DNA of 64,000 nucleotides, from positions 1 to 64,000 of the forward strand of contig NZ_AUGL01000014.1 of NCBI RefSeq assembly GCF_000422645.1, given 5' to 3'. Position numbers and translations under genes: made by a program. The notes beneath the pieces were generated by a model. It was not told the DNA's origin and did no database searches. It worked only from the letters and a program-made list of their open reading frames with translations. Each line of letters begins with the position of its first letter. Positions within the stretch are counted from its first letter, which is position 1. The stretch is from Ferrimonas futtsuensis DSM 18154 (lineage in GTDB: Bacteria > Pseudomonadota > Gammaproteobacteria > Enterobacterales > Shewanellaceae). Of this stretch, positions 36,326 through 45,922 are shown piece by piece.

Positions 36326-36964
36326 TCAGGCGGCTTCGCGCATCTGGGTCAGCCACAGACCCAGTTCATCCCGGCTGGGAATGCGCTTATCGGAGTGGCC
36401 CATCAGTTGAGTCAGGGCATAGCAGTACTGGTGATACACCCCCAGGTCACAACACTCGGTGTCACCATCGTCGATGTTGATCAGACTGCCACGAACAAAG
36501 CTGCGCACCAGGGCGCCGCGGTCATAGCCTTCGACAGGACCGATGGCGTCCATCACCCGCTGGTTCCAATCGTTGTAGTCGGCGAAGGCCTTGTTAAAGG
36601 CGGCACGGTAGAACTCTCCGGCCTGCTCCAGCACGTCGGTGTTGGGCATCACCCGGGAGATCACGAAGCGGTCATTGCACAGCACTTCGCGCATGCGCCA
36701 GCAATGATGGTAGAGGAAGAGATGAAGGGGATTCGCATGCACCTTCTGATCTGCCTGAGCCTGGGCCAGGAAATCTCGGAATTCGGCGGTAGCCACGGCC
36801 ACCACCAGGTCCGCCTCAGAGGGGAAATGGTTGTAGACAGTACCCTTGGAGATCTGGCTGGCCTTGACCAGATGAGAGCGGCAAAGACCGAAGGTCTTGT
36901 GCCCCTTTAAACAGCGCTGCGCCACGGTTACCAGGTAATTTGCCCTTTGTTCCCAGCTGCTCAT
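36326..36964 (-). CDS. TetR-family regulator (TetR1)
   Basis: A 212-residue regulator. The HTH covers about residues 8-58 (KASQISKGTVYNHFPSEADL); the rest is a helical ligand domain. It is 115 bp upstream of bufA on the same strand and 110 bp from a divergent LysR gene, so it could control either. It aligns along its whole length with the protein at 38000-38665 (shared YNHFPSEADL/ERVFFSDDDL, FADYNDW/LANYNDY, IPSRDELGLWL/RPSREELTQWL). ATG at 36964 with GGAG 6 bases upstream. Confidence 0.87.
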   Translation of the reverse strand: MSSWEQRANYLVTVAQRCLKGHKTFGLCRSHLVKASQISKGTVYNHFPSEADLVVAVATAEFRDFLAQAQADQKVHANPLHLFLYHHCWRMREVLCNDRFVISRVMPNTDVLEQAGEFYRAAFNKAFADYNDWNQRVMDAIGPVEGYDRGALVRSFVRGSLINIDDGDTECCDLGVYHQYCYALTQLMGHSDKRIPSRDELGLWLTQMREAA

Positions 36965-37074
36965 CACAGACTCCAAAATCTCTGTTGTATGAATTCACAG
37001 TCTCAAGGTATCAGCCTTTGGTGCAAGCGGATATTGAGTAATACTTGGGGCACCATTAGCGGAGTGAATACCCC

Positions 37075-37935
37075 ATGCTCAAAGTCGAACTTTTGGAGAG
37101 TTTCATCGCCGTTGCCGAGTGCGGCAACATGTCCAAGGCGGCCGAAAAGGTGTGCCGGACCCAGTCGGCGCTGAGCTTGCAGATTAAGAAGCTCGAAGAG
37201 AGTGTCGGTCAGATGCTGTTGGACAGAGATAACCGCGGCGTTACCCTCACCGAAGCCGGTGAAAAGCTGTTGAACTACGCCTACAAAATGGTGCAGCTCA
37301 ATATGCAGGCGTTGGACGATCTCAAAGAGGAAACCAAGCAGATCATCCGCCTCGGTGTGCCCACGGATTACGTGAAGTGGTATCTGGAGTCCGGCCTGAT
37401 TGAGTTCATTCGCGAGTTCACCAACCTGCAACTGGTGATCGATACTGACGTGTCCGGCAACCTGTTCAAGCGCCTGGGCAATGGCGAATTTGACGCCATC
37501 ATCGCCACTCACTGGCACCCCCAGGCCCACGGCGAACTGCTGTTTGAGCGCCGCTTCGTCTGGGCCGCCGCCAAAAACGGCAACTCCCACCAACGCAGCA
37601 CCATCCCCATGGCACTGTACCCGGAGAACTGCCCCATCCGTGCCCAGGTGTTTGCCAACCACAACATCTCCATGCGCCCCATCAACGTGCTGCTCTCCAC
37701 CCCCTCTCCCCAGGCTCTGTGCATGGCGGTAGAGGATGATCTCTGCATCGCCCCCATCGCCGAGTTCCGGATCAGCGACAAGATGCAGGTACTGGATGCC
37801 GAGGAGCATAAGCTGCCCAAATTGCCGATGTTCAATGAGTCCTTCTATGTGAATCCGTCGGCAGAATCCAAGGCATTGGAGCAGTTACGTGGCCTGCTGA
37901 AGGCCAACCTCAGCAAGATGGTGATTCAGCACTGA
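37075..37935 (+). CDS. LysR-family transcriptional regulator (LysR1)
   Basis: A 286-residue LysR regulator with an N-terminal winged HTH (AECGNMSKAAEKVCRTQSAL, residues 13-32, then LDRDNRGVTLTEAGEKLLNY) and a periplasmic-binding-protein-like effector domain from about 90. GGAG precedes the ATG. It has its own terminator and lies between the two tetR paralogues. The target is unknown. Confidence 0.92.
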   Translation: MLKVELLESFIAVAECGNMSKAAEKVCRTQSALSLQIKKLEESVGQMLLDRDNRGVTLTEAGEKLLNYAYKMVQLNMQALDDLKEETKQIIRLGVPTDYVKWYLESGLIEFIREFTNLQLVIDTDVSGNLFKRLGNGEFDAIIATHWHPQAHGELLFERRFVWAAAKNGNSHQRSTIPMALYPENCPIRAQVFANHNISMRPINVLLSTPSPQALCMAVEDDLCIAPIAEFRISDKMQVLDAEEHKLPKLPMFNESFYVNPSAESKALEQLRGLLKANLSKMVIQH

Positions 37936-37999: not shown

Positions 38000-38665
38000 C
38001 TACTGACCAACGGCCAGGGTGCTCTCGTAGGGATCTGCCGCAGAGAATTCACTGACAAGCCACTGGGTCAGCTCCTCTCTGGAAGGGCGTACTTCGGCTT
38101 CCAACTCCAACAAGCTAGCCACAGACTCAACCAGCGACACGTACCCTTCCAGCGCCTCCAGGCTTCGGCTGCTATCCGGTAGATGATGGTCATTGGCTAT
38201 CCATTTATACAGTTCCAACATGCCCGCCAGTTTGGGCGAAATCAGCATCTTCAGCAGATAGGTCAGGTAATCGTTGTAGTTGGCCAAGGAGCGCAGATAG
38301 CGCCTGGATGTTTCCGCCGAGGCAGAAAAGATCAGCGCGTCACCGGGCACCAGCTGGTGCAGAGGAAAACGGCCCATCACCTGAGCTTCATAGGCCACCC
38401 AACAGGCATGATAGAGCAGCGCCCTGGCTGGCTGACGATGCAGGCGATAGGAGTACTCCAAGTGCTTGAAGTGGGAGTAGAGTTCGCTGTCGGCGATGGA
38501 AAGACGCAGGTCGTCATCACTGAAGAAGACACGCTCGACCCGATGCTCACAAACATCCGGCTGGGCAGCCAGAATGGAACGACTGAGGCGATACGCCTCC
38601 TGTCCCTGAATCAGCTCACGGGCGACGGCGCACAGCGCCCTTCTCTCTCGGAGTCCAGACAACAT
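38000..38665 (-). CDS. Diverged TetR-family paralogue (TetR2)
   Basis: A 221-residue protein with no obvious HTH by eye, but it can be aligned end to end with the TetR at 36326-36964: VERVFFSDDDLRLSIADSEL with VYNHFPSEADLVVAVATAEF, LLYHACWVAYEAQVMGRF with FLYHHCWRMREVLCNDRF, SLANYNDYLTYLL with AFADYNDWNQRVM, and RPSREELTQWL with IPSRDELGLWL. The recognition-helix region has changed strongly, so its DNA target must differ or be lost. I choose the ATG at 38665 (AGAGG upstream); a GTG at 38746 gives 248 residues. A GGAA-N4-TTCC site lies about 90 bp upstream. Confidence 0.72.
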   Translation of the reverse strand: MLSGLRERRALCAVARELIQGQEAYRLSRSILAAQPDVCEHRVERVFFSDDDLRLSIADSELYSHFKHLEYSYRLHRQPARALLYHACWVAYEAQVMGRFPLHQLVPGDALIFSASAETSRRYLRSLANYNDYLTYLLKMLISPKLAGMLELYKWIANDHHLPDSSRSLEALEGYVSLVESVASLLELEAEVRPSREELTQWLVSEFSAADPYESTLAVGQ

Positions 38666-38755
38666 ACCCACCTCTTGGCAAAGGGAAATGGCACTCCATG
38701 CGTTAACCAGGGTTCGCTCCGGGACCCCCAAGACAATGCCGCTCACCTTACCCGA

Positions 38756-38820: not shown

Positions 38821-38931
38821 AAAAAAGCCCCCACAACTGTGGGGGCCACCTAAGCAAATAGACACGAAACCTCATAGTCAATTAGCAGGGAGACGATGAT
38901 GAAACCTTGGCCTCGTGTCCGTTTCCGAGGC
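38821..38931 (-). ncRNA. Possible small RNA, unit 1
   Basis: On the minus strand a 110-base stretch begins at a small hairpin (GCCTCG/CGAGGC) and ends in GCCCCCACAACTGTGGGGGC plus six T, an excellent intrinsic terminator. It encodes no protein. A second copy with the same ends lies at 39058-39170. This is the look of tandem sRNA genes or 3'-UTR-derived RNAs; no promoter was identified with confidence. Confidence 0.4.
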
Positions 38932-38997
38932 GCGCAGGAGCACCCCGAAAACCCTCAAAAACTTTATTCAAACGACAATCATGACCAGCTTACCTAA

Positions 38998-39009
38998 GGA
39001 ACCGATTCC
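38998..39009. promoter_or_regulatory. GGAA-N4-TTCC site 2
   Basis: GGAACCGATTCC followed by a run of A, at the same place in repeat copy 2 as site 1 in copy 1. Confidence 0.5.
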
Positions 39010-39057
39010 AAAAAAAAGTGGGGGCCACGTTTTGGCTCATTGAGCACCAGTAAACAA

Positions 39058-39170
39058 CAAAAAAGCCCCCACAATTGTGGGGGCCACCTAAGCAGAAAGA
39101 CACGATGCCTTACAGTCAATAAGCAAAGAGATGATGATGAAACCATGGCCTCGTGTCTGTTTCCGGGGCG
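39058..39170 (-). ncRNA. Possible small RNA, unit 2, also porin terminator
   Basis: Second copy of the terminator-ending unit, starting about 25 bases after the porin stop codon. It ends in the perfect palindrome GCCCCCACAATTGTGGGGGC plus six T on the minus strand. It may be only the long 3' UTR and terminator of the porin mRNA, or be processed into a stable RNA. Confidence 0.42.
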
Positions 39171-39194: not shown

Positions 39195-40310
39195 TTAGAA
39201 GTAGTATCCAAAGTTGATGTTGATGCGGTTGTCCCAACCGCTGTCGGTCTGAGCCAGACCCACGTGATCGTTCACCCCGGCGGCGTACATATTTTCGCCG
39301 GCAATAAAGTCGATGTAGGTGTAGGTGGCACCGGCGGAGATCGCCATACCGGTAACGTTCATCAGACTGTCGTCGTAGCTGGCATCATCGGTGTCCGGTG
39401 TCAGCATGCCGAAGTCGTTGTAGACGGTGATGCTGCCCCAGGAGGTGGGGAAGCTCTTGGCCAGGTTGACGGAGTAGATCTGAGCCTTGGAGGCCACTTC
39501 GTACTGCCAGGCGTAGGCAGATACGGCAATCTTGTTGGCATCGGCCGGGCTGTCGGCGTCGTACTCATACTGCATCGCCTGCAGCTGAAGCTTCCAGTCA
39601 CCGAACTTGGCGTCCATGTGCAAGGCAACGGCATAGCGATCGCCATTGTCACCGGTCTTGCTGTTGTAGATCTGACCCCACTCCAGAGAGCCACCCAGGG
39701 TTGCGCTGCCACCGTCATAATCCATGACGTACACCTGACGCAGGTTGATCTGGTTGGTCTCTTCGTTGTTGTACTCGGTGCCGTTCACCGTACCCTTGTA
39801 CAGATCGGTGGAGTAACGCTCGTTGCGAGAGGCGCTGTACTCGGCGTTCTTGAACAGGCCGATGTCGGTCTTCCACTGGCCGCCGTTGTAGTGGAAGGTG
39901 GCGCCCATGTCGTAGTCATCTTCAAAGCCCAGGTAGTAAGGCAGACCGAACCAGAAGCTGTTGGAGATGTAGCCCGGGTTACCGAAAGGCACGTTGGTCA
40001 GACCGAAGCGGCCCTGCCATTGATCATTGAAATCATAGTAGGCGTAGGCATAACGCAGGCTTTCCCAGCCATCGAAGAAACGGTACTCGGACGCCAGGCC
40101 AATGCCGTTGATCTCACCGTTGAATTTCAGGGCCAGCATGTCGAACTTGAAGTCGCCCATCTTGTCTTCAGAGGCGTCGCTGTAGCTCTTGTACTGGTAG
40201 TTGGCGCGAACGGTGCCGCCCACATCAATACCATCTTCCGCCATTGCCGCAGCGGAGCTGCCGGCCATCATGGCCGCAACGGCCATAGTCAACGCAGTAT
40301 TATATTTCAT
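39195..40310 (-). CDS. Outer-membrane porin of the DMSP/acrylate cluster
   Basis: A 371-residue beta-barrel protein with a signal peptide (MKYNTALTMAVAAMMAGSSA then AAMA) and a C-terminal aromatic residue (FGYYF*), the outer-membrane sorting signal. Strands alternate over the whole length, with many acidic and tyrosine residues, as in general or substrate-specific porins of Shewanella. It lies 143 bp after dddY on the same strand. A role in DMSP or acrylate entry is inferred from context only. Confidence 0.85.
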   Translation of the reverse strand: MKYNTALTMAVAAMMAGSSAAAMAEDGIDVGGTVRANYQYKSYSDASEDKMGDFKFDMLALKFNGEINGIGLASEYRFFDGWESLRYAYAYYDFNDQWQGRFGLTNVPFGNPGYISNSFWFGLPYYLGFEDDYDMGATFHYNGGQWKTDIGLFKNAEYSASRNERYSTDLYKGTVNGTEYNNEETNQINLRQVYVMDYDGGSATLGGSLEWGQIYNSKTGDNGDRYAVALHMDAKFGDWKLQLQAMQYEYDADSPADANKIAVSAYAWQYEVASKAQIYSVNLAKSFPTSWGSITVYNDFGMLTPDTDDASYDDSLMNVTGMAISAGATYTYIDFIAGENMYAAGVNDHVGLAQTDSGWDNRININFGYYF

Positions 40311-40415
40311 CGTTTCCTGTCCTATTTAATATCAGCAGGACACAGCTACCCCTGCCCTCTGCGGGGCATGTAAGTCAACTGGTCCGGAGTTTGGCCGCCA
40401 AAGCGGCCGAGATAT

Positions 40416-40441
40416 GGGCCGGTCTGGCGCCGGCCCTTTTT
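40416..40441 (+). terminator. Terminator-like hairpin between dddY and porin, T-tract on the plus strand
   Basis: GGGCCGG (40416-40422) and CCGGCCC (40430-40436) with TTTTT after it on the plus strand. The genes here run on the minus strand, so its T-tract faces the wrong way; it may block antisense transcripts or act as an mRNA-stabilising hairpin for dddY. Confidence 0.5.
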
Positions 40442-40453
40442 ATCAGCTGGTTA

Positions 40454-41713
40454 TCAGTACTTGGTCTTGGTCAGATCGCAGCGGAACTTCTCACCACGCA
40501 TGGCTGGCGTGTTGGGACGTTCGGAGGACTCACACAGACGGGTCGTACCATAGTCATTACGCTTGTCGTGGGCGTTGGAGCGAGCCCAGACAGTCACGAT
40601 CGCCTTCTCTTCAGGCTTGGCGTGACAGTTGGCACCGTTGTAGTTAAACGCATGGATGGTGTTCTGGTGGAAGTAGGCCAGATCATCATGCTTGGGCGAG
40701 GTGTTGGCCCAGAACCAGGGCTCATTCGGCATGCCGGCGTCAAACTCCACCTCACGAATGGTCTCGTTCTCGCTGATGGTTTTCACCAGGGGGCTGTCCT
40801 CACGCACGGCGAAGTTCTGGAACTCGTCGGCACAGGCTGGCTCACGCATGGTGTAGTAGATCTCGGAGATCGCATGGTTGTGATAGGGGTAGAAGGAGTC
40901 GATGCGCTGGGTCACCATGCCCACTTCGGCACCCACCTTCTCATTGTTGATCTCGTCGATGCGCAACAGGCCCCAGTGGCCGAACACCTCGGCGTAGGCG
41001 TAGTTGCCACGAGTCTTGGTGAAGTTCCGCTTGTTACGCTCGCTGTCTTCGGCGTACATGGGGAACCATCCCACGGAGGCCCACAGGTTTGGCAGGGCGT
41101 TGGCGCTGATATCGAATGGGAAGGCATCAGGCAGTTTGATGTCGTCTCCGGTCACCATCTTGGAGAAGTTCTTGGTGAACTCGCGACCGTACTCCTTCAC
41201 CTCTTTGTTGGTGACCTTCTTGTCGAAGAACTCCTGGAAGGTGGTGCGTTTCAGCCACTTGGCCACGGGAGAGTTTTTCTCCAGCTCGCCACCCGGGCTG
41301 TAGATCCAGTTGACGTCCTCGCGGGCGCCGAAACAGGCTTTGGCCTTATCCGGATTGTTGATCACCGCGTAGATGTGCTTGACCATCAGTTTCATGTCAC
41401 GACGGTCCATGATGCACATGTACTGCGGCCCTTCCAGATCCTGAGTGTTGGTCTGGAACATGCTGCGATCAGAGTTGCGGCAATTACCGTCGCTGGTACT
41501 CAGTGCTACCGCGTAACCCTCGAGATATTTCAGGGTTTCGTCCCACAACATGTCGACGTATTTTTGATCTTTCTTGGAATAAGTGGCGGTTTCGCCAAGA
41601 CATTTGAACTCGGCGTTCATAATTTCTTCTTTATCCAGAAAATCGGGAATGTTAGCAGCCATAGCTGAATTGGCAACCAACAACCCAGCAATCAAAGCAG
41701 AGTTTTTCATCAT
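40454..41713 (-). CDS. dddY: Periplasmic DMSP lyase DddY
   Basis: A 419-residue secreted protein (signal peptide ending NSAMA) that matches DddY in length and active site. DddY cleaves dimethylsulfoniopropionate to dimethyl sulfide and acrylate in the periplasm. The motif YPYHNHAISEIYY (residues 275-287) carries the metal ligands His280 and Glu284 and the catalytic-base candidate Tyr286; the third metal histidine is His354 in NTIHAFNYNG. The spacing equals that of characterised DddY (His265, Glu269, Tyr271, His338 in an Acinetobacter enzyme, from memory). Six or more cysteines suggest disulfides. It sits between a tetraheme cytochrome and a porin, downstream of a flavoprotein reductase. Confidence 0.88.
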   Translation of the reverse strand: MMKNSALIAGLLVANSAMAANIPDFLDKEEIMNAEFKCLGETATYSKKDQKYVDMLWDETLKYLEGYAVALSTSDGNCRNSDRSMFQTNTQDLEGPQYMCIMDRRDMKLMVKHIYAVINNPDKAKACFGAREDVNWIYSPGGELEKNSPVAKWLKRTTFQEFFDKKVTNKEVKEYGREFTKNFSKMVTGDDIKLPDAFPFDISANALPNLWASVGWFPMYAEDSERNKRNFTKTRGNYAYAEVFGHWGLLRIDEINNEKVGAEVGMVTQRIDSFYPYHNHAISEIYYTMREPACADEFQNFAVREDSPLVKTISENETIREVEFDAGMPNEPWFWANTSPKHDDLAYFHQNTIHAFNYNGANCHAKPEEKAIVTVWARSNAHDKRNDYGTTRLCESSERPNTPAMRGEKFRCDLTKTKY

Positions 41714-41747
41714 TTATGTCCAGAGATGGTTTTAATCTTTTAAAATA

Positions 41748-41804
41748 AAGCGGGCAGAATCGGTGGGAAAATGACTTGGAAGTCCGTTTTGATTCTGCCC
41801 GCTT
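41748..41804 (-). terminator. Long 14-bp hairpin between cytochrome and dddY
   Basis: AAGCGGGCAGAATC (41748-41761) pairs fully with GATTCTGCCCGCTT (41791-41804), with TATTTT following on the minus strand. The 29-base loop is unusually long for a simple terminator. It could partly end the reductase-cytochrome message or stabilise its 3' end, giving dddY a different level. Confidence 0.65.
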
Positions 41805-41840
41805 AATAGGCTTTATTATATTTTTAATTAAGCAGCTTTT

Positions 41841-42242
41841 TTACTGCTTATGCTTGGTAAACTTGAAAGTGTGACAGTCGTTACACAGTGGCTGTTTGGC
41901 TTCGTGCTCACCGTGGCACACGGTGCAAGGCGTCTCTTTGCCGTAGTGCAGGTTGTTGTGAGGGTTCTGCCACAGCTCCTCCTGATCCTTACGAGCGGTC
42001 TTCTTCGCCAGCTTGTCCACCTTGTGGCACTTCAGGCAGGCGTCATCCGCAGGACGAACCGAGGGCGCGTTGGTGCCGTGACACACCTTACAGTTGTCCT
42101 TCTTGTAGAACTTCTGGTGGTAGGTGCGACCGTCCATCATACCTTGATCGGTCAGGGAAGCATCAGCCTTGATCTCAGCAGCAACGTGAGTACTTGCCAG
42201 CAGAGCAGCAACAGCGGCCAGGGTCATTAACTTTTTCATCAT
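41841..42242 (-). CDS. Small periplasmic tetraheme cytochrome c of the DMSP/acrylate cluster
   Basis: A 133-residue secreted protein (signal KLMTLAAVAALLASTHVAA) with four haem motifs, CKVCH, CLKCH, CTVCH and CNDCH, and additional histidines for bis-His ligation. It resembles the tetraheme domain of flavocytochrome c3 and the partner cytochrome of methacrylate reductase. It is 27 bp after the flavoprotein gene and should be its electron donor, fed by a CymA-like quinol dehydrogenase. Confidence 0.92.
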   Translation of the reverse strand: MMKKLMTLAAVAALLASTHVAAEIKADASLTDQGMMDGRTYHQKFYKKDNCKVCHGTNAPSVRPADDACLKCHKVDKLAKKTARKDQEELWQNPHNNLHYGKETPCTVCHGEHEAKQPLCNDCHTFKFTKHKQ

Positions 42243-42269
42243 CTAATCCTCATTAATTCCGTTATTGAC

Positions 42270-43793
42270 TCAGGCGCCCATGATGCTGCGAGCAGCAGTC
42301 ATGCCCATCACCATACAATCTGGAATGGAGCAGCTACCCAGACGGCTCACACCGTGCATACCACCGGCCACTTCGCCCGCGGCATACAGACCTTCGATGC
42401 GCTGACCGGTGAAGGAGTCTTTCACCTCGGCCTTGGTGTTGATCTGAACACCGCCCTGGCAGTAGTGAACCTTGGGCCACAGACGAACCACGGTGAAGGG
42501 CGCTTTCAGGTACTTACCTTTGGCTTTGCCCATGTTCTTACCGAACTGCTCGTCGTTACCGCTCTTCACATAGCCGTTGTACTCTTCAATCTGCTCCTGC
42601 AGAGGCTTCAGAGGCACGTCGAAGTGCTTGGCCAGAGCTTCCAGAGAGTCGAACTTCCAGCCTACGCCGTACTTCAGTACCTTCTTACAGTTGGGGTGCT
42701 GCTTGGCGTGCTCGTAGCTGGTGATCATGATCGGAGGCAGAGGCTTGCCTTCAGCATCACGACAGGCCAGTTCGGCGTCGGCACGGGTCTTACGGTCAGC
42801 GATTTCGTTCATGAAACGCTTACCGGTCATGCGGTTAACCGCAATGGAGTGGGGGAAGTTGAAGATGGAGTAGTTGGACACATAGCCGAAACCACCCTCA
42901 TCCGGGGACGCCCAGGGACCGGACTGGATGTGCGCCATGTGCACAGGGATGGCACCCAGACGGAACATCTCGAACATGCCTTCACCGGTGGCACCCTTGG
43001 CGTTGGTACAACCCACTTCGGCGGTCAGAGTCGGATCCTGAGCCATACGCAGGTCGACGTTCTGAGCGAAACCACCGGTGGCCATGATCACACCGCGGGT
43101 GGCGCGAACGTTGATCTCTTTCTCCACACCGGCATCTTCATCTTCGAAGTAGTACCCCTGGTTCAGGCGCACACCGACAACCTTGCCAGCGTCATCCAGG
43201 ATGAAACCGTTGAACTTGGTGCGAGGCACCATGTTCACGCCCATCTTGCGGCACTCATGCAGCAGAGGCTGGGTAATACCGGCGCCACAGCTGACGGTGG
43301 TCTGGTAGGTACGAGGTACGGAGTGGCCACCCAGCTGCTGCAGGTAGGGGTGGAACACGGCACCGGCGTCGATGGTCATCTGCAGCGCTTCCATGGCGTG
43401 AGACGCCACGTGACGCAGCAGAGCTTCATCGGCAATACCACGACCGGCTTTCAACTGGTCATTCACCATGCGTTCTACTGAATCTTCAACGCCCTTCTCT
43501 TTCTGCATGGGCGTTTGAGGCGCAGCGAACAGACCACCGTTAATGGCGGAGTTACCGCCGAAAACAGGCATCTTTTCGAAGATGGTGACTGACTTACAGC
43601 CTTGACGGGCCGCTTCGATGCCTGCGGCCAGGCCGGCGAAACCGGAGCCGATGATGGCGATTTCTACAGTCTCATCCCACTTCACACCTTTGGCGCTGAC
43701 AGACGTTGCCATGGCAGGCGCGGCCATTACGGCACCGGCTGCACCCAGCCCCTTAATGAAATTACGACGTCCGAGCAGATTAACTTTACTCAT
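42270..43793 (-). CDS. Tat-exported flavoprotein reductase, probable acrylate (2-enoate) reductase
   Basis: A 507-residue periplasmic flavoprotein. The Tat motif GRRNFIKG has its arginines at 9-10; FAD is bound by GSGFAG (49-54) and GGNSAINGG (79-87). Active-site elements of flavocytochrome c fumarate reductase are present: GKRFMNE (Arg326, the proton-donor position), HYCQGG (His443) and GGMHGVSRLG (His480, Arg484). So it should reduce an activated C=C bond. Neighbouring dddY makes acrylate in the same compartment, and periplasmic acrylate and methacrylate reductases of this family are known, so acrylate is the best guess; fumarate, urocanate or cinnamates remain possible. It heads the minus-strand series reductase-cytochrome-dddY-porin. 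Confidence 0.85.
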   Translation of the reverse strand: MSKVNLLGRRNFIKGLGAAGAVMAAPAMATSVSAKGVKWDETVEIAIIGSGFAGLAAGIEAARQGCKSVTIFEKMPVFGGNSAINGGLFAAPQTPMQKEKGVEDSVERMVNDQLKAGRGIADEALLRHVASHAMEALQMTIDAGAVFHPYLQQLGGHSVPRTYQTTVSCGAGITQPLLHECRKMGVNMVPRTKFNGFILDDAGKVVGVRLNQGYYFEDEDAGVEKEINVRATRGVIMATGGFAQNVDLRMAQDPTLTAEVGCTNAKGATGEGMFEMFRLGAIPVHMAHIQSGPWASPDEGGFGYVSNYSIFNFPHSIAVNRMTGKRFMNEIADRKTRADAELACRDAEGKPLPPIMITSYEHAKQHPNCKKVLKYGVGWKFDSLEALAKHFDVPLKPLQEQIEEYNGYVKSGNDEQFGKNMGKAKGKYLKAPFTVVRLWPKVHYCQGGVQINTKAEVKDSFTGQRIEGLYAAGEVAGGMHGVSRLGSCSIPDCMVMGMTAARSIMGA

Positions 43794-43837
43794 CTGGTTC
43801 TCACCCTTGTTTGGTTATCTCGGGGCCAGTGTAAAAG

Positions 43838-43851
43838 TGGAACCAGTTCCA
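43838..43851. promoter_or_regulatory. GGAA-N4-TTCC site 3, perfect dyad before reductase
   Basis: TGGAACCAGTTCCA is a perfect 6+2+6 palindrome. It lies 45 bp upstream of the reductase start codon, where it would overlap the promoter or the early transcript. Likely repressor site. Confidence 0.62.
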
Positions 43852-43951
43852 AAACGGGAGGATCTGTCATTTCTTAATAAAAGAGTTTGAACCTTTTGAA
43901 AAATAGAGAGACCAATCAAATTTATAAAAGGAATATATATATTTCATCGTC

Positions 43952-43971
43952 TTTTGGAAATCGTTCCAAAA
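43952..43971. promoter_or_regulatory. GGAA-N4-TTCC site 4, extended dyad between reductase and LysR2
   Basis: TTTTGGAA and TTCCAAAA flank ATCG, giving an 8+4+8 dyad. It lies about 160 bp before the reductase start and 95 bp before the divergent lysR gene. A TATATATAT stretch lies about 20 bp on the reductase side and could be the -10 region. A further inverted pair TCAGGT/ACCTGA follows at 43978-44000. Confidence 0.62.
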
Positions 43972-44065
43972 TGAATATCAGGTCATATTTCCCCACCTGA
44001 AAAGAATCATTACTTTCTATCGCCTGATATTGTGTCGTTAACAAGACTCAAAATAACGGAAGACA

Positions 44066-44992
44066 ATGGAACTAGAAGAGTTGTACCGGCGCGACCTCAG
44101 TCTGCTTGTCGCCCTTCAGGTACTGATTGAGGAGGGCAGCGTTACCCGGGCCGCCAAACGTCTGCATCTGAGTCAGTCCGCCACCAGCCGGGTGCTGGCC
44201 AGGCTAAGAGAGATGCTGGGGGATCCGCTGTTTACCCGGGTAGGCACCCGACTGCAGCCCACTCAATTTGCCCTGGATTGCCAGCATAAGTTGCAGGCGC
44301 CCATTACTGAGCTGAGTCATCTGCTCTCCCCCAGGGTATTCGACCCGGCGCAGTGCCGACAGACCTTTACCATTGCGGTGACCGACTTTGCCCTGCAGGC
44401 ACTGATGCCCGCCATCCTGGAAAAGCTCTACTCCCAGGCGCCGGGGGTAAACCTGGAGGTGCTGCCGGTCCAGCACCGGGATCTGAAAACCCAGCTAGGC
44501 AGTGAAGGGGTGGACCTGGCCATCTGCCGGGCTCCGGGGAAGAGCGCTCCGGTTATCAGCCGCAATTTGGGGCTGGTCGGTCTACGGGCAGTGGTGGCCA
44601 AGCAGCATCCCCTGGCCGATGCCGCTCTCGAACCTGAGCACTTCAGAGAATACCCGTCAGCCGTAGTGGCAGTGAGTGACGGCGTAAAGGCGTTGATGGA
44701 CGATGCCATGGCGGGCCTCGGCGGCCACAGAATGCTGCTGCGCACCCCAAGCCTGGGCAATGCCCTGGCACTGCTCAAACATCAGCCTTTGTTGCTGACC
44801 CTGCCCTCGGGGCTGGCCGAACAGGCGGGAGAACAACATGATCTGGTGGTCAAGCCCCTGCCCTTCCCCCTCCCCCCCATCGACTACCACCTGTTCTGGC
44901 ACTCCCGCACCGGTGAGGATCCGGCCCAGTGCTGGCTCAGAGAGCTGATCAGCGACGCCACCTCTCCCCTGCTGGATGGTCAGTTGAGTTAG
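44066..44992 (+). CDS. LysR-family regulator divergent from the reductase operon (LysR2)
   Basis: A 308-residue LysR regulator with an N-terminal HTH (SVTRAAKRLHLSQSATSRVL, residues 26-45) and an effector domain from about 95. Its place, divergent from the reductase-cytochrome-dddY operon with a 272-bp shared promoter region, is typical of a LysR activator of that operon. The co-inducer could be acrylate or DMSP; DddR-type regulators in other bacteria also use such signals. This link is inferred from position. Confidence 0.9.
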   Translation: MELEELYRRDLSLLVALQVLIEEGSVTRAAKRLHLSQSATSRVLARLREMLGDPLFTRVGTRLQPTQFALDCQHKLQAPITELSHLLSPRVFDPAQCRQTFTIAVTDFALQALMPAILEKLYSQAPGVNLEVLPVQHRDLKTQLGSEGVDLAICRAPGKSAPVISRNLGLVGLRAVVAKQHPLADAALEPEHFREYPSAVVAVSDGVKALMDDAMAGLGGHRMLLRTPSLGNALALLKHQPLLLTLPSGLAEQAGEQHDLVVKPLPFPLPPIDYHLFWHSRTGEDPAQCWLRELISDATSPLLDGQLS

Positions 44993-45098
44993 CCTTCACG
45001 GCGCTCCCTCCTCCCCAGCTGGGTCTTCCCCCAAGCTCCTTCCCCAGGCTCCTTCCCACAGGCCAAGCATTGGTTTGGTGGTTTTCCGGCACGGACAT

Positions 45099-45123
45099 AA
45101 AAAATCCGCCCCGAGGGGCGGAT
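45099..45123 (-). terminator. Terminator after the acuI-like gene
   Basis: ATCCGCC and GGCGGAT form the stem, with six T following on the minus strand, 26 bp after the stop codon. Confidence 0.9.
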
Positions 45124-45148
45124 CACGACCTCTGGACGGAGATCAAAA

Positions 45149-45922
45149 TCAGAGGGTAATGATCACCCGACCGGTTACCTGACCACGCACAATCTTATGG
45201 GCGTAATCGGCGACCTGTCCCAGGCCAATGCTATGACAAGCCTGCTCGTAGAAAGACTCAGGCAGAATATCCAGGGCCTTCTTCCACGCAGTCAGTCGCT
45301 GATCATAGGGGCAGGCTACGGAGTCCACTCCCTGAAGGCGCACATTGCGCAGGATGAATGGCATCACTGTAGTCGGCAACAGGTGACCACCAGCCAGACC
45401 ACAGATTGCGGCAGTGCCACCGTAGTTCACCTGGGACAGGGCGTGAGCCAGCACCTGGCTGCCCACGGTGTCCACGACACCGGCCCAACGCTGGCGCTCC
45501 AGCGGCCGGGCCTGAACACACAGCATGGCAGTCAGGCCGGCGGTACCGATCATCATCGCCTTGTTGGCATCGCAGTTGGCAGGCATGGGGACCAGCCAGT
45601 CCGCCTTCACGCGCGCACGCTCCGCCATGCCGCCCCAATGGCGTTCACCCACACCCCAGCCGGTCAAAATGACCTGATCACCCGCTTTGTAACGCTCGTC
45701 ACTGGACTCGATGACCCGACCAGCAAAATCGATACCCGGCACCATGGGGAAATCCCGAATGATTTTGCCGGTGCCAGTCACCGCCAGACCATCTTTGTAA
45801 TTGAGAGAAGATGCTTCCACCTCCACCAGTACATCACCTTCAGGCAGATCGCTCTCCTGCAGCTGTTGAATCTGGGCTTTCGTGGTTTTCTCCTCCTGGG
45901 TCAGGACAAGCGCATTAAACAT
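45149..45922 (-). CDS. acuI: AcuI/YhdH-type acryloyl-CoA reductase with internal 67-residue deletion
   Basis: AcuI reduces acryloyl-CoA to propionyl-CoA with NADPH and protects against acrylate. The 257-residue product matches the AcuI/YhdH family closely at both ends (SSLNYKDGLAVTGTGKIIRD; TTVMPFILRNVRLQGVDSV), but the family length is about 324-330. At residue 138 the sequence jumps from GTAGLTAMLCVQA straight to RPLERQRWAGVVDTVG. The missing stretch of about 67 residues contains the Rossmann VTGASGGVGS nucleotide-binding loop. The frame stays open, so this is an in-frame deletion of about 201 bp near 45508. The protein is probably inactive as a reductase. AAAGGA lies before the ATG, and a good terminator follows. 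Confidence 0.88.
   Translation of the reverse strand: MFNALVLTQEEKTTKAQIQQLQESDLPEGDVLVEVEASSLNYKDGLAVTGTGKIIRDFPMVPGIDFAGRVIESSDERYKAGDQVILTGWGVGERHWGGMAERARVKADWLVPMPANCDANKAMMIGTAGLTAMLCVQARPLERQRWAGVVDTVGSQVLAHALSQVNYGGTAAICGLAGGHLLPTTVMPFILRNVRLQGVDSVACPYDQRLTAWKKALDILPESFYEQACHSIGLGQVADYAHKIVRGQVTGRVIITL

Follow-up and report, generated by a model that had tools for sequence, protein, structure and literature searches.

Genes for a periplasmic DMSP lyase and a respiratory enoate reductase in Ferrimonas futtsuensis: a probable acrylate-respiration operon and a candidate operator

The DNA analyzed here, 64,000 nucleotides of contig NZ_AUGL01000014.1 of Ferrimonas futtsuensis DSM 18154 (referred to as the window; source genome of 4.3 Mb in 39 contigs), carries four minus-strand genes that would join the cleavage of dimethylsulfoniopropionate (DMSP) to the reduction of the acrylate formed. 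In the order of reading these are a periplasmic flavoprotein reductase of the flavocytochrome c superfamily (red, 42270 to 43793, 507 amino acids), a tetraheme c-type cytochrome (cyt, 41841 to 42242, 133 amino acids), the DMSP lyase gene dddY (40454 to 41713, 419 amino acids), and an outer-membrane porin (39195 to 40310, 371 amino acids). All four frames lay at the coordinates and on the strand given in the original prediction, which was made from the sequence alone. Because the intergenic gaps are 27, 127, and 143 bp and a terminator-like hairpin with a T run follows the porin (39085 to 39064, minus strand; a match to the consensus only), the four genes are likely to form one operon that ends at this hairpin. 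Two near-identical terminator-like hairpins, about 240 bp apart, were seen on the 3' side of the porin (38826 to 39085). The 272-bp gap before red holds two copies of an operator-like palindrome, TGGAA-N4-TTCCA, the only two in the window (0.09 expected): a proximal copy, TGGAACCAGTTCCA (43838 to 43851), located 45 to 58 bp before the red start codon, and a distal copy, TGGAAATCGTTCCA (43955 to 43968), located 117 bp from the proximal one and 98 to 111 bp before a divergent regulator gene, LysR1.

The product of dddY scored above the cutoff of the NCBIfam equivalog NF053571 (706.4 versus 650 bits) and below that of a second DddY equivalog, NF043049 (282.2 versus 800 bits), and it matched the solved DddY structures PDB 5xkx and 5y4k (best E value, 4e-73). 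The active-site residues His280, Glu284, Tyr286, and His354, which had been read from the sequence before, were present as described and, together with Tyr275 and His278, were invariant in all nine aligned DddY sequences, including the Acinetobacter enzyme of the solved structures; we take the former four to bind the metal and Tyr275 to be catalytic. Enzymes of this family cleave DMSP in the periplasm to dimethyl sulfide (DMS) and acrylate, and the predicted identity of 40454 to 41713 as such a periplasmic lyase is well supported. Elsewhere, the dddY genes of five Bacteroidota loci (L106, L107, L109, L111, and L123) were 57 to 62% identical and were directly preceded by porin-like genes, themselves 27 to 30% identical to the window porin, suggesting that dddY and a porin may have been transferred as a pair. 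Shewanella fidelis carried two different dddY genes in tandem (L096, 9962 to 12559), which were 66% and 45% identical to the window gene.

The reductase was one of eight proteins in the genome above the TIGR01813 cutoff (492.7 versus 285.45 bits). Its predicted twin-arginine translocation (Tat) signal contains the sequence RRNFIK and had a TAT_signal score of 22.0 bits, slightly below the cutoff of 22.7, and the expected motifs GKRFMNE, HYCQGG, and GGMHG-x-x-R (as GGMHGVSR) were all found. No CxxCH motif was present in the reductase; the hemes are encoded by the separate cytochrome gene and not by a fused N-terminal tetraheme domain as in FccA. The cytochrome contained the predicted four CxxCH motifs and matched PF14537 and also the N-terminal heme domain of flavocytochrome c3 (E values of 0.001 to 0.009), and so the two proteins look like a split flavocytochrome. 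The cytochrome is likely the electron donor of the reductase, and three NapC/NirT-family genes scored above the cutoff in the genome.

The solved structures closest to the reductase were FccA and UrdA, as would be expected if it were a fumarate or urocanate reductase and its neighborhood coincidental. However, the similarity to the two was practically equal (216.9 and 216.0 bits), and a quick tree with 97 rows set the branch of the reductase apart from both: FccA grouped with a separate FccA-like gene (L162) and UrdA with a UrdA-like gene of the same genome (L161), neither with red. This tree was built without bootstrap, its FccA and UrdA root did not form one clean side, and several paralogues were long-branched; we used it solely to show that FccA and UrdA fall outside the branch of the reductase. 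Firm placement with the fumarate or urocanate enzymes, named beforehand as the outcome that would overturn the prediction, thus did not occur. Among 21 aligned reductase orthologues, Arg334, His443, and Arg484 were invariant and aligned with FccA Arg402, His504, and Arg544/545, whereas FccA His365 and Arg381 were replaced by invariant Gly292 and Asn312 and Glu378 by nearly invariant Ser309; FccA Thr377 fell on Val305 or Ser306, the alignment being unsure by one position. In FccA, His365 and Thr377 hold the second carboxylate and Glu378 and Arg381 form the proton relay. By this alignment, the reductase is predicted to keep the catalytic arginine and the residues for one carboxylate and to lack His365 and the Glu378/Arg381 relay. 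The structure model (mean pLDDT, 67.6; mostly below 50 in the active-site loop 286 to 312) was used for the fold only. On the tree and the residues we reject a fumarate or urocanate reductase; such an enzyme in a coincidental neighborhood is very improbable. We infer acrylate as the substrate from the sequence, and the locus is quite probably an operon for periplasmic acrylate respiration in which a DMSP lyase supplies the acrylate. The complete route from DMSP to acrylate respiration that was originally proposed therefore stands well supported in one part, a periplasmic lyase beside a respiratory enoate reductase, while its substrate keeps the status of an inference.

A genome collection was searched with a DddY alignment, which gave 69 loci, 45 from Shewanellaceae and 24 from Bacteroidota, Campylobacteraceae, Rhodocyclales, and others. 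In 41 of the 45 Shewanellaceae loci, dddY had the reductase and a four-heme cytochrome next to it; in the remaining four (L093, L095, L103, and L108) the contig starts less than 1.5 kb before dddY. Over 41 loci, lyase and reductase distances correlated (r = 0.86), and none of 2,000 permutations was as high. A separate survey covered 152 Shewanellaceae genomes, with an E value of at most 1e-200 defining a reductase orthologue. It found the reductase in 91 genomes, dddY in 66, and both in 64 (Fisher P = 1.8e-18, kinship not being corrected for), and 63 of 67 dddY copies were at most 8 kb from a reductase, the other four starting 4 to 1,470 bases from a contig start. Since 64 of the 66 dddY genomes had both genes and 27 genomes had the reductase only, dddY practically implies the reductase, but the converse does not hold. 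The reductase was matched (at an E value of 1e-80) in 4 of 398 sampled Pseudomonadota genomes, all 4 of them Shewanellaceae. Two regulator genes of the window, TetR1 and LysR2, were matched in 90 and 89 of the 91 reductase genomes, respectively, and red lay beside both in 25 of the 27 loci without dddY; in the two exceptions, TetR1 was not intact (L198) or the contig was only 3.8 kb long (L215). Presence of dddY on the quick tree required 17 changes, with second copies counted as lacking dddY. In our reading, the reductase cassette is the stable core and dddY an optional addition. The cluster had been described as a compact example with its own porin and regulators; the gene set was as described, but it is found across the family and is not special to this genome.

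The palindrome was closely associated with the reductase. A perfect copy was located 30 to 120 bp before the start of 68 of 75 reductase-branch genes from other loci, the 75 being those whose upstream sequence was long enough (that of one further row was not); of the rest, three had a copy with one mismatch and four had none. Shuffled controls gave a perfect palindrome in 1 of 3,750 regions, and among all 1,024 palindromes of the same form TGGAA-N4-TTCCA ranked first, with 69 of 75 genes versus 7 for the next one (uncorrected starts, 350 bp). Two copies within 260 bp were found in 41 of the 75 genes. Three of the four reductases without the palindrome (L060, L061, and L217) were extra copies in genomes with another reductase gene, the fourth being L198, and none of 18 paralogues was preceded by it. 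The palindrome also preceded 28 of the 43 dddY genes of Shewanellaceae for which the upstream sequence was sufficient, in 27 cases at 50 to 74 bp from the open reading frame start, and none of 22 dddY genes from outside this family; starts were corrected for the count of 68 and left uncorrected for the dddY counts. Ferrimonas dddY genes had no copy of their own, which is what one would expect of genes transcribed from the red promoter. Because the palindrome precedes both genes, the control element is common to lyase and reductase, also in loci in which dddY has a promoter region to itself, and we propose TGGAA-N4-TTCCA as a candidate operator common to the two.

Beyond these two genes, the palindrome was found in some Shewanella before a DcaP porin (4 of 16) and a dCache-type chemoreceptor (2 of 5; L080 and L124); it preceded none of 7 DcuA/DcuB transporter genes, none of 41 dddY-linked porin genes, and 1 of 49 acuI genes. 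The F. futtsuensis genome contained five sites, as many as for a reversed control pattern, and so a role of the operator in marking further genes genome-wide is not supported in this genome. Three of the sites lay before its two reductase copies and two inside long frames of other genes. The chemoreceptor was located between the porin and LysR2 in three loci (L080, 12660 to 14579; L087, 12700 to 14613; L124, 12846 to 14765), with the dCache domains tested on the L087 protein, and a role in chemotaxis to acrylate or DMSP is possible.

The operator is perhaps read by a neighboring TetR- or LysR-type protein. LysR1 (44066 to 44992, plus strand), which is divergent from red and stands beside many but not all of its relatives, is an unlikely reader: within the loci searched it was present at only 6 of the 27 without dddY, and loci that lack it, such as L195 and L207, keep the palindrome. 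The almost constant companions of red are LysR2 (37075 to 37935, plus strand) and the TetR-like TetR1 (36326 to 36976, minus strand). Autoregulation of these two through the operator was ruled out, as the palindrome was absent from 66 of 66 LysR2/TetR1 intergenic regions; three sites loosely counted near TetR1 lie about 180 bp before it, by their coordinates inside the start of LysR2. In genome G018 (L198, 1 to 650; G018:C133) the only reductase orthologue lacks the palindrome and TetR1 was matched only as two partial stretches on different contigs, and this pattern is the one hint that TetR1 rather than LysR2 is the candidate reader. A further regulator-like gene without a Pfam match (38000 to 38746, minus strand) had counterparts between the porin and LysR2 in no species but the two nearest; one of these counterparts matched TetR1 weakly. 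Regulons of SO1415 and SO3627 have been inferred for Shewanella flavocytochromes, and the available text of that report (PMC3223726) contains no DMSP, dddY, or acrylate. A description of the operator was not found in the literature searched, a collection with few subscription papers judged by titles and abstract openings.

Several findings weigh against an acrylate-respiration operon. The genome counts come from related species and are not independent, and outside Shewanellaceae none of the 24 dddY loci, some with short flanks, had a reductase match or an open reading frame with at least three CxxCH motifs (15 of the 24 had an AcuI relative); on this count we reject a reductase-dddY link across phyla. 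In two genomes (G033 and G160), where dddY is situated at the end of its contig, the other contigs did not yield a reductase either; contig truncation is the likely cause. Additionally, 27 of the 91 reductase genomes lack dddY, and the 33 loci without an adjacent dddY, these 27 included, held no remnant of it beside the reductase (best E value, 0.93). In some reductase loci the cassette adjoins a DcaP-type porin or a C4-dicarboxylate transporter (DcuA/DcuB), the latter in four loci with and two without dddY, and such neighbors would also fit a dicarboxylate substrate. The reductase might accordingly serve a different 2-enoate, possibly one with two carboxylates or else a larger mono-acid, with dddY having joined a ready-made anaerobic periplasmic regulon whose operator and porin happened to suit it. 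The cassettes without dddY and the neighboring DcaP and Dcu proteins favor this view, and the glycine at the FccA His365 position would make room for a larger group. However, dddY almost never occurs without the reductase, it often has its own operator copy, and the second-carboxylate residues of FccA are not kept (with certainty for His365), so that we regard another enoate as unlikely.

A second alternative concerns the purpose of acrylate reduction and bears on the AcuI-like acrylyl-CoA reductase gene of the window (45149 to 45922, minus strand). Compared with the two nearest species, this gene has an in-frame deletion of 207 bp, or 69 residues, over the glycine-rich nucleotide-binding motif; its product fell below the NF051456 equivalog cutoff (325.6 versus 440 bits) and passed that of the broader subfamily TIGR02823 (324.9 versus 297.25 bits). 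Either a true loss or a fault in the assembly could explain the deletion, and as it stands the protein is probably nonfunctional. No other AcuI was found in the genome, where the next relatives were 30 to 32% identical over part of the protein. With the only AcuI shortened, removal of acrylate before its uptake would be useful, and the reductase could mainly serve detoxification rather than energy-conserving respiration, a role proposed in the available part of PMC4427408 and compatible with the acuI genes that adjoin many such loci. The cytochrome partner and the quinol dehydrogenases nevertheless fit a respiratory chain, and the near absence of the operator before acuI indicates that cytosolic detoxification is not under the same control. 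We consider detoxification as the main role doubtful, though a stronger contender than another enoate, and the two roles are not mutually exclusive.

The porin had no Pfam or NCBIfam match; its beta-barrel model (mean pLDDT, 78.3) resembled general porins (such as OmpT, Omp32, DcaP, and OprP), and reductase cassettes from other branches have related porins too. For these two reasons, a DMSP-specific porin is not supported.

The genome contains a second reductase-cytochrome pair (C4:6989-8941; L044) with protein identities of 98.4% and 100% to the window pair, adjoining a DcaP-type porin and lacking dddY. In this genome, G011, and G005, the two copies were 96.6, 98.3, and 99.1% identical in the reductase DNA and 98.8, 99.1, and 99.8% in the spacer and cytochrome, respectively, while the flanks of the copies were unlike in all three (only the downstream flank was compared in G005). 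The second-copy flanks were alike between this genome and G011 (69.5 and 76.8%), and the second reductase of G011 was split in two frames. Since the copies are near-identical and their flanks are not, the pattern suggests gene conversion limited to red and cyt, which would therefore have the same function in both places.

In the acrylate-respiration operon that we favor, DMSP would enter through the outer-membrane porin and be cleaved by DddY in the periplasm to DMS and acrylate, and the Tat-exported flavoprotein would reduce the acrylate to propionate. Electrons would pass from the quinol pool through a CymA/NapC-type enzyme, one of the three encoded in the genome, to the tetraheme cytochrome and from there to the flavoprotein. 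Transcription would be set by the palindromic operator and is likely to be induced by acrylate, since this operator is also present at reductase cassettes that lack dddY. We are evenly balanced on whether TGGAA-N4-TTCCA defines one acrylate regulon that unites the reductase with DddY and the DddY-linked porin, as well as with the DcaP porin and the dCache chemoreceptor of some species, and leaves the cytosolic AcuI outside. If it does, sensing, swimming to, taking up, making, and respiring acrylate would be under one regulator. Among the sulfur gases of biological origin, DMS is a major one. If these bacteria couple DMSP cleavage to acrylate respiration, they would release DMS as a side product of anaerobic respiration, not of carbon feeding, and this release would depend on oxygen limitation. 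The nested distribution and common operator allow direct tests of these ideas in Ferrimonas and Shewanella strains that can be cultured, and with the operator one can look for the regulator and for more acrylate genes.

Desulfovibrio acrylicus respires acrylate, and Wolinella has a periplasmic methacrylate reductase. Possible respiration of DMSP-derived acrylate has been raised for Arcobacteraceae in the available text of PMC12596276. The Acinetobacter DddY (PDB 5xkx and 5y4k) shares its family and active-site residues with the window enzyme at 39% identity, but the 24 non-Shewanellaceae dddY loci surveyed, Acinetobacter not among them, lacked a reductase neighbor. FccA resembles the reductase in fold, flavin adenine dinucleotide domain, catalytic arginine, and heme module; it differs as one fused chain whose second-carboxylate and proton-relay residues are not kept in the window reductase.

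Another of the closest known systems is Mrd/Mcc of Geobacter sulfurreducens AM-1, as described in the accessible part of PMC4427408. It too consists of a heme-free Tat flavoprotein and a separate tetraheme cytochrome (with a Sec signal in Mcc), and Mrd reduces acrylate at a rate comparable to that of methacrylate. Mrd keeps the same three residues (R353, H461, and R501) but carries W311 and V324 at the positions that are His and Ser/Thr in fumarate reductases. Compared by these published residue numbers only, the window reductase would have Gly292 and Val305 at the changed positions. The spacings Gly292-Val305-Arg334 (13 and 29) equal those of W311-V324-R353, unlike the matching FccA positions, which are 12 and 25 apart. 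The systems differ in the glycine in place of tryptophan, in lineage, and in the cytochrome (133 amino acids versus 231 in Mcc), and no dddY linkage is described for Mrd/Mcc. The authors of PMC4427408 suggest that such reductases evolved for transforming acrylate from DddY-type lyases.

Also among the closest known systems is the cluster of Shewanella sp. MR4, where the available text of PMC3338564 draws fccA, fccB, dddY, and acuI together; according to the same text, acuI lies close to dddY in eight of nine Shewanella species, and Ferrimonas balearica has a dddY gene. The Ferrimonas locus shares the flavoprotein, tetraheme cytochrome, dddY, and acuI with MR4 and differs in its shortened AcuI and the second reductase-cytochrome pair elsewhere in the genome; neither an operator nor acrylate respiration is discussed in that text. 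The original prediction was right that the idea is not new: judged by these parts of PMC3338564 and PMC4427408, the gene order and the acrylate proposal are already known, and the locus, while coherent in function, is ordinary within its family. What is added here to those systems is the operator, the nested distribution of dddY and the reductase, and the concerted red-cyt copies.

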